From contig JANSYL010000002.1 of the NCBI GenBank assembly GCA_024742455.1, positions 310,001 to 374,000 on the forward strand: a stretch of 64,000 bases of DNA. Reading direction: 5' to 3'. Positions 10,423 through 35,209 of this stretch are shown piece after piece. Under the pieces are notes generated by a model. The model was not told the DNA's origin and did no database searches. It saw only the letters and a list, made by a program, of their open reading frames with translations. Every line of letters begins with the position of its first letter. Position 1 is the stretch's first letter. This stretch comes from Paracoccaceae bacterium. GTDB taxonomy: Bacteria; Pseudomonadota; Alphaproteobacteria; Rhodobacterales; Rhodobacteraceae. The position numbers were made by a program, and so were the translations under genes.

Positions 10423-11891
10423 TCCAGGATCATGACCGCGCCGGGGGCTACTGGGGCTCCGTCTACGCCTTCACCGCCGTGAAGGGTCTGCAATGCATCA
10501 TCGACGGCCCGGTCGGCTGTGAGAACCTGCCGGTGACCTCGGTCCTGCATTACACCGATGGCCTGCCGCCGCATGAGCTGCCTATCGTGGTGACAGGCCT
10601 GGCCGAGGAAGAACTGGGTCGCGATGGCACAGAGGGCGCGATGAAACGCGCCTGGGATACACTTGATCCGGCCCTGCCTTCCGTTGTGGTTACCGGGTCC
10701 ATCGCCGAGATGATCGGTGGCGGTGTCACGCCGCAAGGCACCTCGATCCAGCGGTTTCTGCCGCGCACCATCGATGAGGACCAATGGGAAAGCGCGGACC
10801 GCGCGATGACCTGGATCTTCACGGAATTCGGCATGACCAAGGGCCGGATGCCGCCCGAGAAGAAGCGCGAAGAGGGAGCTGCCCCCCGCGTCAACATCCT
10901 TGGTCCGATGTACGGCACCTTCAACATGCCTTCGGACCTGGCCGAGATCCGTCGCCTCGTCGAAGGGATCGGGGCCGAGGTCAACATGGTGATGCCGCTT
11001 GGCAGCCATATCGCCGAGATGCGCAACCTCGTGAATGCCGATGTGAACATCTGCATGTATCGCGAGTTCGGGCGCGGGCTGTGCGAGGTTCTGGACAAGC
11101 CTTACCTCCAGGCGCCGATCGGCGTGGAATCCACCACGAAATTCCTGCGCAAACTGGGTGAGCTTCTGGGCCTCGACCCCGAACCCTTCATCGAAAAAGA
11201 GAAACATTCGACCATCAAACCGGTCTGGGATCTCTGGCGGTCAGTGACACAGGATTTCTTCGCGACGGCCAGTTTCGGCATCGTCGCCAACGAAACCTAT
11301 TCGCGCGGCATCCGCCTGTTCCTCGAAGAAGACATGGGGCTGCCCTGCGCCTTCGCCGTGGCACGGACCGCCGGCAAGAAGACCGACAATGAAAAGGTCC
11401 GCGCGATGATCGCGGAAAAGCGGCCACTGATCCTGATGGGGTCGATCAACGAAAAGATGTATCTGGCGGAAATGGCTGCCGGACATGGCCCGAAACCCGC
11501 CTTCATCCCGGCCAGCTTTCCCGGCGCTGCCATCCGGCGCGCCACGGGCACGCCGATGATGGGTTATGCCGGGGCCACTTACCTGATCCAGGAGGTGTGC
11601 AACGGCCTGTTCGATGCACTGTTCCATATCCTGCCGCTGGGCAGCGACATGGATGCCGCCGACGCCACCCCCACGACACTGCGCCGCGACTTTCCCTGGG
11701 ATGATGACGCGCAGGCGCTTCTGGACCGCATCGTGGCCGAACACCCGGTTCTTACACGCATTTCCGCCGCGAAGACGCTGCGCGATGCCGCTGAAAAGGC
11801 CGCGCTCGCCGATGGGGCGGAGCGGGTGATGAAAAACACGGTCGCCAAACTGGCCCCTGCCGGTTTCGTGACGGAGGAGGAGACGGCATGA
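10416..11891 (+). CDS. bchZ: Chlorophyllide a reductase subunit BchZ
   Basis: BchZ is the second catalytic subunit of chlorophyllide a reductase. The 491-residue product contains [26 protein letters not shown] near the N-terminus (first 20 residues of the motif carry the cluster cysteine), then [15 protein letters not shown] and a C-terminal domain. It starts inside the bchY 3' end and its TGA overlaps the pufQ ATG, which ties pigment synthesis to the puf genes on one transcript. Confidence 0.95.
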
Positions 11892-12109
11892 CCGATATCA
11901 GCCCCGACACCCATTGCACGCGCGCCCACAAGCCGCCGCGCACCGAATACCTGATCTATTTCGGGATCATTTTTCTGGCGACCCTGCCGCTGGCCACCCT
12001 GTCCTGGGCTCTGGCTGCGATCCGGCAAGGCAGCCTGACCGACAAAGGGCCGGTCAAACGTGCTTGGACTCAAGCGCGGATCATCACCCCGATGATCTTT
12101 TCGGCCTGA
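11888..12109 (+). CDS. pufQ: PufQ, bacteriochlorophyll synthesis/LH1 expression factor
   Basis: PufQ is a small single-span membrane protein at the head of puf operons and is needed for normal bacteriochlorophyll formation in Rhodobacter. The 73-residue product has a cytoplasmic N-terminus, one hydrophobic helix (roughly residues 21-45, [20 protein letters not shown]) and a basic tail, matching the family layout. The ATG overlaps the bchZ stop. It is followed by a 213-nt leader before pufB. Confidence 0.9.
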
Positions 12110-12322: not shown

Positions 12323-12472
12323 ATGGCTGACAATACCGACCTGTCGTTCACGGGTCTGACCGACGAGCAGGCTCAAGAGCTGCACGCGGTGTACATGAGC
12401 GGGTTGTACCTCTTCGCGGCCGTCGCCGTGGTCGCACACCTCGCCACGTACATCTGGGCTCCCTGGTTCTGA
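12323..12472 (+). CDS. pufB: Light-harvesting complex 1 beta polypeptide PufB
   Basis: This is the LH1 antenna beta subunit, a 49-residue single-span protein. It begins [20 protein letters not shown], has His21 and the bacteriochlorophyll ligand His39 in [14 protein letters not shown], and ends in the Trp-rich periplasmic tail typical of beta chains. A GGAGGA ribosome binding site lies 7 nt upstream. pufA follows after 15 nt. Confidence 0.97.
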
Positions 12473-12487
12473 GGAAGGATTTAAAGA

Positions 12488-12652
12488 ATGGCAAAGTTCT
12501 ACAAGATCTGGCTGATCTTTGACCCCCGCCGCGTGTTCGTGGCTCAGGGCGTCTTCCTGTTCCTGCTGGCAGCGATGATCCACCTGGTGGTTCTGTCGTC
12601 CGGCCTGAACTGGTTCGAGTCGGCCGCGATGACTGCAGGCTTCGGCAACTGA
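12488..12652 (+). CDS. pufA: Light-harvesting complex 1 alpha polypeptide PufA
   Basis: This is the LH1 alpha subunit, 54 residues, starting [20 protein letters not shown]. The transmembrane helix carries the AxxxH pigment motif (Ala28 to His32), and the C-terminal side contains the NWF element. It is normally followed by pufL and pufM; here it is followed by a hairpin and then dxs. Confidence 0.97.
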
Positions 12653-12682
12653 GCCGACCTGATCACGATTGCGATCTAAAGA

Positions 12683-12718
12683 TGCTGCGGGCGGCGCGTG
12701 TCCGCCTCGCCCGCAGCA
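12683..12718 (+). terminator. pufA 3' stem-loop (mRNA stabiliser or terminator)
   Basis: An 11-bp perfect inverted repeat, TGCTGCGGGCG at 12683 and CGCCCGCAGCA ending at 12718, encloses a 14-nt loop. There is no T-run after it, so it looks like the intercistronic hairpin that in Rhodobacter lies between pufA and pufL and protects pufBA mRNA, not a rho-independent terminator. Here it is retained although pufL is absent. Confidence 0.75.
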
Positions 12719-12821
12719 AATTCAGGGCCCCGAGAGCCGATCTTTCGTCTCGACCGAGCGACCACAGACCCCGCTCGTGGCCCGATCCTCGCAGATGATG
12801 CGGGTTTGGGAGGACCCCCGA

Positions 12822-31400: not shown

Positions 31401-32189
31401 ATGACACCCTTAGACACCCCATTCTTCGGCAATTTCGACCTGGCCAGCCTGTCGATCTGGCTGTTCTGGATCTTCTTTGCGCTGCTGGTCTACTACCTGC
31501 AGACCGAGAACATGCGCGAAGGCTACCCGCTGGAAGCCGATGACGGCGGCGAAGCCGCCAACCAGGGTCCCTTCCCGCTGCCCAAGGCGAAGACCTTCAA
31601 GCTGCCCCATGGCCGGGGTGAGGTCACCGTTCCCTCCGCCGAGAACGAAGCGGCCCATCGCCGGACCAACCTCGCGCTGGAACAGACCTCCAAGGCCGGC
31701 GGCTTCCCCTTCGCACCCACCGGCGATCCGATGCTCGACGGTGTCGGCCCGGCGTCCTGGGCCCCGCGCCGTGACGCGCCGGAACTGGACGGCCACGGCC
31801 ATCCGAAAATCGTGCCGATGGCCCAGACCGAAGCCTACCGCGTCAGCGCCGGGCGCGACCCGCGCGGTCTGCCGGTCGTCGCCGGGGACGGTGCAACCGT
31901 GGGTGAGATCACCGATATCTGGATCGACACCCCGGAACAGCTGGTTCGTTATCTTGAGGTGACGCTGAACGACGACCACGGGGGCGGCACCCGCCTGATC
32001 CCGATCAACCTGGCCGTCATCCGCAGCGACCGCGTCAAGGTCCGGTCCATCTTCGGCAAGCATTTCGCCAACGTGCCGCAGATCAAGTCGGGCACCCAGG
32101 TGACCCTGCTCGAGGAAGACAAGATCACCGCCTACTACGCCAGCGGCAATCTTTACGCCTCCGAGGATCGTCTGAACCCCTACGCCTGA
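31401..32189 (+). CDS. puhA: Photosynthetic reaction centre H subunit
   Basis: PuhA caps the cytoplasmic face of the L/M core and guides protons to QB. The 262-residue protein has a single N-terminal membrane helix (about 12-31, [20 protein letters not shown]), then [11 protein letters not shown] and a PRC-barrel domain with [20 protein letters not shown]. It is full length with no frameshift, which matters because the partner genes pufL and pufM are not in this window. Confidence 0.96.
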
Positions 32190-32222
32190 TCCGACCCTGC
32201 CAAGACCCGAAGGACCCGACCG

Positions 32223-32870
32223 ATGCCCCATGATCACCACGACGATTTCCAGGTGGAACCGATCCCGGGATTGCCCGAAGCCCTGCCTCAGGGTGAGGAG
32301 ATCCTGTGGCAAGGTCGCCCATCCTGGATCGCGCTGGCGGTCGAGGCGTTCGGTGTCCTCTGGGTCGCGGCCATCACGCTGGGCCTTGCGGCGTGGCGTG
32401 TCATCGCCGCCTTCGCAGGGGCACCGTGGGAGGCGAACATCGCGCTCGCCATTGCCATCGCCATTCTTGGCGGTGGCCTTGCGGCGGTCCTGTGTCTGGC
32501 GGCCTGGCTGCAGGCGCGCGAGACGGTCTACACCCTGACCACGGGCCGCGTCGTCATGCGCTTTGGCGTCATGCAGACGATGAAACTTCAGATCCCGTTC
32601 AACCGCATCCGCAATGCGGCCTTGTCGATCGGGCGATCGGGCGCGGGAACCATCGCGCTCGATATCACCGGGGCGGGCAACCTGTCCCACATCCTGTCCT
32701 GGCCGCATGTGCGGCCCTGGCACACCAGGCCCATGCAACCGGCGCTGCGCTGTATCGCCGGGGCGCAGGACGTGGCGCAGCTTCTGGCTGAAGCGGCTGA
32801 AACCGCGCTGACCACCCCCACCATCGACCGGACGCCTGCCTACGCGGCAGCGGCCACAGCGGCGGAGTGA
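32223..32870 (+). CDS. puhB: Photosynthetic complex assembly protein PuhB
   Basis: PuhB assists reaction-centre assembly in Rhodobacter. The 215-residue product begins with a His/Asp-rich N-terminus, has LPQGEEILWQGRPSW, about two or three membrane helices, and a PH-like domain with TLTTGRVVMRFGVMQTMKLQ and IPFNRIRNAALS. It follows puhA by 33 nt. The expected next gene, puhC, is missing. Confidence 0.92.
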   Translation: MPHDHHDDFQVEPIPGLPEALPQGEEILWQGRPSWIALAVEAFGVLWVAAITLGLAAWRVIAAFAGAPWEANIALAIAIAILGGGLAAVLCLAAWLQARETVYTLTTGRVVMRFGVMQTMKLQIPFNRIRNAALSIGRSGAGTIALDITGAGNLSHILSWPHVRPWHTRPMQPALRCIAGAQDVAQLLAEAAETALTTPTIDRTPAYAAAATAAE

Positions 32871-32875
32871 CACTC

Positions 32876-32986
32876 ATGCGCCGCCCCTGTCCCTTTCCCC
32901 TTTACGTGATCCCGCATTCAGACCGCGGTGTCCGGGGGCAGGGAACCACCCTGATCGCGGGACTGTCCCGCAAGCTGGAGGAATGA
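32876..32986 (+). CDS. Small ORF (36 aa) in the position of puhC
   Basis: The ATG at 32876 is preceded by GGAG with 8-nt spacing, and the TGA at 32984 ends 2 nt before the bciE start. The peptide begins MRRPCPFPLYVIPHSDRGVR and ends in a basic/acidic LSRKLEE. It shows no membrane helix and no resemblance I can recognise to PuhC, which is about 150 residues with an N-terminal membrane anchor. It may be a real microprotein, a remnant left by puhC deletion, or a chance frame that carries the bciE leader. Confidence 0.4.
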   Translation: MRRPCPFPLYVIPHSDRGVRGQGTTLIAGLSRKLEE

Positions 32987-32988
32987 CC

Positions 32989-33285
32989 ATGGGTTTGTTT
33001 ACCCGAACGACCGAAACCGCGCCCTGCGAGGTGGAAGTGAGCCATCGCTTCGACAGCCTTCATGCGCATGTGAAATTTCTGAACGGCGCCATCATCCACC
33101 CCGGTGACGAGGTGCTGGTGCATGGCGCGCCGGTCATGGCGCCGTATGGCGAGGTCGTGCGCGAGGAACGCACCGCCACGATCACCCGCGCCTCCGGCAT
33201 CGAGCGGGCCTGGACCCGGATGACCGGCGATTTCGAATTCATGGAACTGTGCGAGTTCTCGTTCTCCGAGGAGGTTTCGGTATGA
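32989..33285 (+). CDS. bciE: BciE, small subunit for the oxygen-dependent cyclase
   Basis: This 98-residue soluble protein lies immediately upstream of acsF and overlaps it by 4 nt. In Rhodobacter sphaeroides the small protein encoded at this position, BciE, is required for AcsF activity. Visible features are a FLNGAIIHPGDEVLVHGAP beta-rich core and an acidic C-terminus. The ATG at 32989 has GGAGG at 7-nt spacing; the ATG at 32983 is too close to that site. The name rests on position, size and overlap, without a database comparison. Confidence 0.75.
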   Translation: MGLFTRTTETAPCEVEVSHRFDSLHAHVKFLNGAIIHPGDEVLVHGAPVMAPYGEVVREERTATITRASGIERAWTRMTGDFEFMELCEFSFSEEVSV

Positions 33286-34397
33286 AAGACCTGCAGCATT
33301 CCGCAGACGCATCCACCGTCGAAGAGGCGATGGCCGCGCAGAATTACGAACAGGCCATCGTCGACAGCGAAGGCGCGACCGCGCTGGCCATGCAGAACAC
33401 CCTGCTGACGCCGCGCTTCTACACCACCGATTTCGACGAGATGGACGCCATCGACGTTTCACCCGTCCGCGAAGACTGGGATGTGCTCATCGGCCAGATG
33501 CAGGCCGATCCGAACAAGGGCCATTTCAAGAAGAACGAGGACTGGGACCATATCGACTGGGAAGGGATGGAGCCCAAGCTGAAGGCCGAATTCATCGATT
33601 TCCTGGTGTCTTCCTGCACCGCCGAGTTTTCGGGCTGCGTGCTTTACAAGGAAATGAAGCGGCGCGGGAACAATGAAGACATCGTCACCCTGTTCCAGCT
33701 GATGGCCCGCGACGAGGCGCGGCATGCCGGTTTCATCAACGATGCCCTGCGTGAAGCAGGGATCGCGGTGAACCTCGGCTTCCTGACGCAGAAGAAGAAA
33801 TACACCTATTTCCGGCCCAAGTTCATCTACTACGCCACCTATCTGTCGGAGAAGATCGGCTACGCCCGTTACATCACCATCTATCGCCACCTCGAGGCGA
33901 ACCCGGAACATCGGTTCCACCCGATCTTCAAGTGGTTCAAGGAATGGTGCAACGACGAGTTCAGCCATGGCGAAGCCTTTGCGCTGCTCATGAAGACCGA
34001 CCCGAAACTGACCTCGGGCGGCAATGTCTGGTGGATCAAGTTCTTCCTGACGGCGGTCTATTCCACGATGTATGTCCGCGATCACCAGCGCCCGGCGTTC
34101 CACGCGGCCCTTGGCGTGGACCCGGATTGGTACGCGCATGAGGTCTTCACCAAGACCTCGGAGATTTCCAAGCAGGTCTTCCCGATCACGCTGGATATCG
34201 ACCATCCGCGCTGGCAGCGGGGTCTGGAACGCCTGCAGAAGGCCAATGCCGATCTTGCCGAGGCAAAGCAGTCCGGCAACATCTTCAAGCGGATCGGCGC
34301 CTCGGCGCGGGCCGCCTCGGCCTTCATCAGCCTCTACACCATCCCCGCCAAGCAGCATGATGTGCCGGTCAGCACCCGACTGGAGCCCGCGTACTGA
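33282..34397 (+). CDS. acsF: Mg-protoporphyrin IX monomethyl ester oxidative cyclase AcsF
   Basis: AcsF is the oxygen-dependent diiron enzyme that forms ring E of protochlorophyllide. The 371-residue product carries the carboxylate/histidine ligands in CTAEFSGCVLYKEMKRR, MARDEARHAGFIND and EWCNDEFSHGEAFALL. The ATG at 33282 overlaps the bciE stop. No bchE (the anaerobic cyclase) is present in the window. Confidence 0.96.
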   Translation: MKDLQHSADASTVEEAMAAQNYEQAIVDSEGATALAMQNTLLTPRFYTTDFDEMDAIDVSPVREDWDVLIGQMQADPNKGHFKKNEDWDHIDWEGMEPKLKAEFIDFLVSSCTAEFSGCVLYKEMKRRGNNEDIVTLFQLMARDEARHAGFINDALREAGIAVNLGFLTQKKKYTYFRPKFIYYATYLSEKIGYARYITIYRHLEANPEHRFHPIFKWFKEWCNDEFSHGEAFALLMKTDPKLTSGGNVWWIKFFLTAVYSTMYVRDHQRPAFHAALGVDPDWYAHEVFTKTSEISKQVFPITLDIDHPRWQRGLERLQKANADLAEAKQSGNIFKRIGASARAASAFISLYTIPAKQHDVPVSTRLEPAY

Positions 34398-35209
34398 TGT
34401 TCGACTCGCCCTGGATCGCGGCCGCCTTGGCCCTTTTCCTCTGGTGGTTCTCCACCGGGGCGATCCTGCTGGCAGTGCGCCGCGCCGACCGGCATGGCCC
34501 GGCCGCGCGTATCTGGGCGGTGCTGTGGCATCTGCCGATCCTGGTTCTGGCCGGGGTCGGCTTTCTCGACAGTCTCGATCAGGCCACGGTCGGCGGGGTT
34601 TATCTGGGCTTTCTGTCCGCGCTGGCGCTGTGGGGCTGGATCGAGCTGACCTTCCTGACCGGGGTGGTCACCGGCCCGGTCAGGACCATCCTCGAACCCG
34701 GCGTCCCGGAATGGGAACGGTTCATCCGCGCCTGGGGCACCGTCGCCTATCACGAGATCCTGCTCGCCGTGACCCTTCTGACCATGATCGTGCTCAGCTA
34801 CGGGCAGGCGAACACCATCGCGGTGCTCACCTTCGGCGTGCTGTTCGGTGCCCGGGTATCGGCCAAGCTCAACCTCTATCTCGGGGTGCGCAAGATCAAT
34901 GTGGAGTTCATTCCCGAACCCCTCAATCACTTGCCCAGCCATTTCCGCACCGCACGGATGAACTGGCTTTTCCCGATCTCGATCACCGCGCTCAGCGTCG
35001 CGACGGGCCTGTGGCTCGAACGGCTCTGGGTCGCGGAGAGCGCGGCCGACATCGTCGGCTACGCTCTTCTCAGCGCCCTGACCGCGCTGGCCCTGCTGGA
35101 ACACTGGTTCATGGTGCTTCCGCTTCCCGATGAAAAACTCTGGCGTTGGATGTTGCCCGCGCGGCCCCAGCCCCCCCAAGCGATAACGACAAGCGAGGAT
35201 GCCCGATGA
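34397..35209 (+). CDS. puhE: Photosynthetic complex assembly protein PuhE
   Basis: PuhE is a polytopic membrane protein conserved in puh operons and reported to influence bacteriochlorophyll level and complex formation. The 270-residue product has about seven membrane spans, with [20 protein letters not shown] and [19 protein letters not shown] as recognisable family segments. It overlaps acsF by 1 nt and hemA by 4 nt. Confidence 0.9.

Follow-up and report, generated by a model that had tools for sequence, protein, structure and literature searches.

The window analysed here, a stretch of 64,000 nucleotides from a Paracoccaceae bacterium, contains the puh genes and some of the puf genes of a photosynthesis gene cluster (Table 1). 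Between the stop codon of puhB, which ends at position 32870, and bciE lie 118 nt, which hold one ORF of 36 codons and no puhC. The ORF begins with an ATG at 32876, 8 nt downstream of a GGAG, and ends with a TGA (32984-32986) located 2 nt before the ATG of bciE, exactly at the coordinates originally predicted. An alternative in-frame GTG start upstream, at 32867, would lengthen it to 39 codons, a second candidate ATG of bciE at 32983 overlaps its TGA, and the ribosome-binding sequence GGAGG of bciE (32977-32981) sits within it. The gene on its 3' side is presumed to be bciE from its position in the locus, and hemA is also found among the neighbours (NCBIfam).

Table 1. Features of the window, with positions counted from its first nucleotide
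Feature	Position	Strand	Evidence
pufQ1, native copy	11888..12109	+	74% identity to Rhodophyticola PufQ, 54% to the PufQ of contig C18
pufB, LH1 beta	12323..12472	+	PF00556 match
pufA, LH1 alpha	12488..12652	+	PF00556 match
pufA-dxs junction, without the pufL, pufM and pufX or pufC normally there in ordinary clusters	12653..12821		Locus comparison
puhA, reaction-centre subunit H, native copy kept in the cluster	31401..32189	+	TIGR01150, 353.6 bits
puhB1, native copy, fast-evolving	32223..32870	+	NF040894, 207 bits, against 245 for the copy on C18
GGAG, ribosome-binding site inside the 3' end of puhB, at the site used by intact puhC genes	32864..32867	+	Several intact relatives with the same layout
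36-codon ORF, most likely a collapsed native puhC with start site and stop/bciE junction kept	32876..32986	+	Layout, junctions, codon usage
bciE	32989..33285	+	Locus pattern; no family model match
acsF	33282..34397	+	TIGR02029, 530.9 bits
puhE	34397..35209	+	TIGR03055, 274 bits

In agreement with the original prediction that puhC is missing from the puh operon, nothing PuhC-like is encoded in the gap. The 36-codon ORF matches no family in NCBIfam or Pfam and does not match the PuhC model TIGR03054 at E-values up to 1, and thus is at best a PuhC remnant, not a PuhC. Its codon usage in its own frame is gene-like, with a score of +0.11 per codon versus -0.57 and -0.55 in the other frames (for comparison, 36-codon gene segments have a mean of 0.35 and a 5th percentile of 0.12, and the off-frame 95th percentile is -0.26). 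An RNA element in the spacer was considered and rejected, as the fold is unremarkable (not better than shuffles, z -0.40) and an Rfam search of window positions 32000-34000 gave no match.

The cluster also lacks pufLM, as had been noticed at the outset: pufA is followed directly by a gene that we read as dxs. The only LH1-type genes over the cut-off in the genome are pufB and pufA of the window, and puhA is likewise present in a single copy, in the window. The genome contains two pufQ genes whose products are 54% identical, one standing with the LH1 genes of the window and the other with pufLMX (locus L003, 9068-9307).

The source genome (2.88 Mb, 98.75% complete, 21 contigs) was searched with TIGR03054, and one full-length puhC was found, on contig C18. 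Its product of 153 aa scores about 128.5-128.8 bits (cut-off 55) and covers profile positions 1-138 of 138. It belongs to a block on one strand, puhB2-puhC-pufQ2-pufL-pufM-pufX, where PufX matches PF11511 at 52.8 bits (cut-off 25) and where pufL and pufM have their only copies in the genome; a third PuhB match in the genome is presumably a general bPH_2 protein. This search rules out a loss of puhC, which the original prediction had combined with the loss of pufLM into a changed or relocated path of core assembly: the relocation stands, with puhC beside pufLM on C18, and the loss does not. The core complex is therefore coded from two places, the cluster supplying subunit H and LH1, and C18 supplying L, M and PufX as well as PuhC, PuhB2 and another PufQ.

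It is highly improbable that this division results from faulty assembly or binning, with the C18 block coming from another organism or puhC being lost in assembly. The assembly does have 21 contigs, and the two parts do lie on different ones; tetranucleotide correlations among the window and C18 pieces, however, are 0.89-0.97, which assigns both to the same genome, and nothing in the composition suggests that C18 does not belong to the assembly. Moreover, the parts complement each other exactly, with one pufLM and one puhC in the genome, and a second genome, that of the uncultured relative AG-359-N23, shows the same split on two contigs. Of ten C18 proteins scanned, nine belong to metabolic, transport or redox families and one has no match, with no transposase or integrase among them. 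A plasmid origin of C18 was rejected, as no replication or transfer gene occurs among these ten proteins, a scan that was not exhaustive.

Two sigma-70-like promoters were found in the C18 block against 0.7 expected, one before pufQ2 (11 of 12 matches, with tandem boxes) and one before puhB2 (10 of 12), and both overlap TGT-N12-ACA boxes, which are putative PpsR-type sites. The promoter-like hexamers lie within these boxes at L003 9408-9440 before pufQ2 and at 10718-10747 before puhB2. As such hexamers precede both genes, transcription of puhB2-puhC and of pufQLMX would seem to start independently. Downstream of pufX lies a stem of nine G-C pairs that resembles a terminator.

Similar arrangements were identified in relatives. 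Among the best 80 PufM loci (from 590 confirmed candidates in species genomes), puhC is directly upstream of pufLMX in four, those of the uncultured relatives Marinovum sp. NAT183, AH-326-E22, AG-390-B07 and AG-359-N23, as detected with the C18 PuhC as the only query at E 1e-4, a search that very divergent copies may escape. A further member of the family, genome G217, carries puhC-pufL-pufM-pufX outside its main cluster on a single contig, with identities to the products of the window genome of 54% (PuhC), 89% (PufL), 85% (PufM) and 69% (PufX). The PufX proteins of G217 and of loci L085 and L089 match PF11511 at 43.2, 30.0 and 39.8 bits, respectively (cut-off 25). In all six cassettes found, the interval from puhC to pufQ or pufL contains two TGT-N12-ACA boxes spaced by 21 to 26 nt, and only the cassette of the window genome includes puhB and pufQ.

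On another contig G217 has a complete ordinary cluster with pufQBALM-pufC and puhABC-bciE-acsF, its PufC matching PF02276 at 406 bits with four CxxCH motifs, and so it holds both pufC and pufX. NAT183 and AH-326-E22 are two-copy intermediates with two puhC each, one per location. AG-359-N23 has a single puhC, in the cassette; like the window it has dxs immediately after pufA, and its pufLMX lies on another contig. AG-390-B07 has one puhC and no puhB, an absence that means little in an assembly as small as 1.5 Mb. In the 394 genomes of the family, puhC is over the cut-off in 162 and puhB in 163; inspection by eye of the puhB and puhC matches listed for them revealed no puhC away from puhB except the second copy of G217, and the puhC of the window genome itself stands beside puhB2. 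G155 has a weak puhC match only, and its puhB lies at a contig end, making this genome uninformative on the puhB-bciE gap. A second, divergent puhA-puhB pair in G081 (C3:50161-50664, L195; 35% and 32% identity to the window), whose complete puhABC operon is elsewhere, was set aside as unrelated to the case of the window.

The trees of the two parts conflict with each other. The window BchXYZ is sister to that of Rhodophyticola porphyridii (support 100, 90% identity; FastTree, 62 of 83 loci, the remainder having no bchY or bchZ in the available DNA), whose puf operon has pufC, whereas PufL and PufM group within the pufX type, in a clade (support 100) with the other cassettes and locus L084. At 77.2%, the PufLM identity to Rhodophyticola is below that of every other pair among the 81 whose BchXYZ identity is 88-92% (median 88.6; L108 and L109 excluded), and joint descent of the two PufLM is rejected at a cost of 251 log units (p-AU 0.0001; L108, a long, partial row, excluded). 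The six cassette PuhC proteins form one clade against 75 others (support 96) in a tree with long branches, and the cassettes as one PufLM clade are not rejected (p-AU 0.154). In the PuhB tree PuhB1 and PuhB2 are not sisters; the end branch of PuhB1, 1.17 against a median of 0.22, is the second longest of 77 and about five times the median, while that of PuhB2 is about twice. The long branch of PuhB1 and a collapsed puhC fit a redundant native pair, of which one member decays in sequence and the other has collapsed.

Locus L084, an ordinary cluster, is placed within the PufLM clade of the cassettes, as neighbour of the window (support 91), and the cassette is therefore perhaps not a single strict lineage. 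Its pufLMX is of the cassette clade and its bchXYZ is near pufC-type genomes, and it may represent either an in-place exchange or a lineage near the source of the cassette. At L084 and likewise at L110, an ordinary cluster contains PufLM of the pufX type together with BchXYZ that falls among pufC-type genomes. It may be that pufLMX is exchanged within clusters more often than a single replacement of pufC by pufX would imply. The position of L084 would also suit a C18 block that is the genome's own cluster, rearranged and vertically inherited rather than acquired, and this would fit as well with the lack of mobile elements among the ten scanned C18 proteins and with the duplicated pufQ and puhB, as if by internal duplication. 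Such a rearrangement is nevertheless unlikely given the contrast between BchXYZ and PufLM identity to pufC-type Rhodophyticola, the rejected joint descent of PufLM, the separate placement of PuhB1 and PuhB2, and the coexistence in G217 of the cassette and a complete pufC-type cluster.

Acquisition of the cassette being preferred, we turn to the short ORF. Comparison of 79 distinct puhB-bciE junctions bears out the canonical puhABC order in relatives and contradicts the possibility that related strains normally lack puhC here, as 77 contain puhC (74 by tblastn, three by spacer length and a TIGR03054 match at that place), although the set was partly drawn from puhC searches and is biased towards having puhC. 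The only exceptions are the window and AG-359-N23. In the latter a gap of 86 nt holds a 24-codon ORF with GGAG, ATG and a stop just before bciE, and the last 29 nt of this ORF match, in frame and at 26 of 29 positions, the 3' end of intact puhC in NAT183 and AH-326-E22 (LAKTTKGE versus LAKAKKGE in the PuhC of these sisters). The Smith-Waterman score is 46 against 19 for shuffles, none of 300 shuffles reaching it; removal of the last 13 nt weakens the match, with 93 and 11 of 300 shuffles then as good for the two sisters. Frame and residues nevertheless agree with the puhC of the sisters, and we take this ORF, a parallel stub, to be a collapsed puhC.

Of the puh operons compared, the nearest to the window is that of G258 (AcsF 93% identical, the next 83%). 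The PuhC of G258 and of four more genomes has ARLLEE or ARIMEE at its C terminus, and 2 or 3 nt separate the stop from bciE, similarly to the window ORF, which ends in SRKLEE, and the 19 nt CTGGAGGAATGACCATGGG are identical in the window and G258. Local alignment of the window spacer with puhC of six related genomes was matched by 0, 0 and 2 of 300 shuffles in three of them, was borderline in one (10 of 300) and absent in two, and its significance disappeared when the last 16 nt were removed (26 to 198 of 300 shuffles as good). The stop-anchored last 12 residues score as high in 2 of 1353 ORF ends, rising to 51 without EE and 169 without LEE, and thus most of the signal lies in the ribosome-binding part of bciE. 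Upstream of that part, homology to puhC is not above that of 160 control junctions with a ribosome-binding site before stop and ATG. The window stub is therefore likely rather than proven, its probable identity being based mainly on position and junctions.

It had also been suggested that the ORF may be either a remnant or a new microprotein, and the first of these now appears likely and the second disfavoured. A functional microprotein that replaces PuhC or regulates bciE and acsF could explain the good ribosome-binding site and start and the gene-like codon usage. It is, however, distinctly unlikely, because the short ORF of AG-359-N23 at the same site shares its junctions and no peptide sequence; in addition, in the set of loci searched tblastn gave no match beyond the window's own genome, no membrane segment was seen in the ORF by eye, and a full PuhC is encoded elsewhere in the genome. 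The clusters of the window and AG-359-N23 sit apart in the bchXYZ tree; together with the unlike peptides and the intact puhC in the sisters of the latter, this means that, provided the window ORF is indeed a stub, puhC collapsed on two or more occasions.

We consider it probable that the 36-codon ORF is the remnant of a native puhC, left after a puhC-pufLMX cassette replaced the native reaction-centre genes. A second, pufX-type block puhC-pufL-pufM-pufX, here with puhB and pufQ, would have been acquired elsewhere in the genome and would have become the sole supplier of L, M and PufX; a deletion between pufA and dxs would have removed the native pufLM (probably pufLMC), and the native puhC, now redundant, would have collapsed by an internal, frame-keeping deletion. 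The ends of the stub would have survived because they hold the operon junctions, the start after puhB and the ribosome-binding site of bciE in the last codons. The stub itself probably at most carries ribosomes from puhB to bciE, and PuhC would still work from its C18 location. As a gap the locus is ordinary; as a scar it is likely a collapsed puhC that points to replacement of the core by the cassette.

A wider proposal is that puhC-pufL-pufM-pufX is a transferable cassette of Rhodobacterales with its own assembly factor and PpsR-type promoter, able to coexist with an entire pufC-type cluster and to turn a pufC-type phototroph into a pufX type, a puhC stub being the scar in the old puh operon, and that such stubs arose at least twice and were retained to bridge translation from puhB to bciE. 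As a joint claim this is tentative, a serious possibility that we would stop short of calling probable. The case offers a specific path by which pufC-type reaction centres can give way to pufX-type ones, via genomes with both. PuhC helps core complex assembly, and to our knowledge it is not settled which part of the complex it serves. Here PuhC accompanies L, M and PufX rather than H or LH1; this suggests that it is matched to the L/M/PufX part, a point that becomes testable by swaps. The case also cautions that a gap in one operon need not equal a loss of function.

A literature search covering few subscription journals gave one close precedent and no description of puhC next to pufLMX in Rhodobacterales, of pufC and pufX in one genome, or of a puhC stub. 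Citromicrobium sp. JL354 has an incomplete second cluster, pufLMC-puhCBA, for which its authors infer horizontal transfer (PMC3338782). As there, reaction-centre puf genes and puh assembly genes stand side by side outside the main cluster, here on C18, in G217 and in the four uncultured relatives, and G217 has a complete main cluster as well. Unlike what is described for JL354, a member of the Sphingomonadales and not of the Rhodobacterales, the window genome has no complete main cluster, its single pufLM being on C18; the cassette has pufX instead of pufC, has no puhA and places puhC upstream of pufL; and the native pufLM is missing, with a likely stub left of the native puhC. As to location in an integrative conjugative element, ten C18 proteins were scanned, none of them mobile. 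In all 22 pufX strains of Rhodobacteraceae in another study, pufX lies downstream of pufQBALM and upstream of dxs (PMC6052148). The order pufL-pufM-pufX and the PF11511 match are shared with this type, whereas here pufLMX, accompanied by puhC and by PpsR-like boxes of its own, is not part of the cluster, and neither the window genome nor AG-359-N23 has pufX between pufM and dxs within the cluster. Finally, the puh operon of the window retains the order and the junction geometry of the canonical puhA-puhB-puhC-bciE-acsF operon except for puhC, which is apparently reduced to 36 codons.
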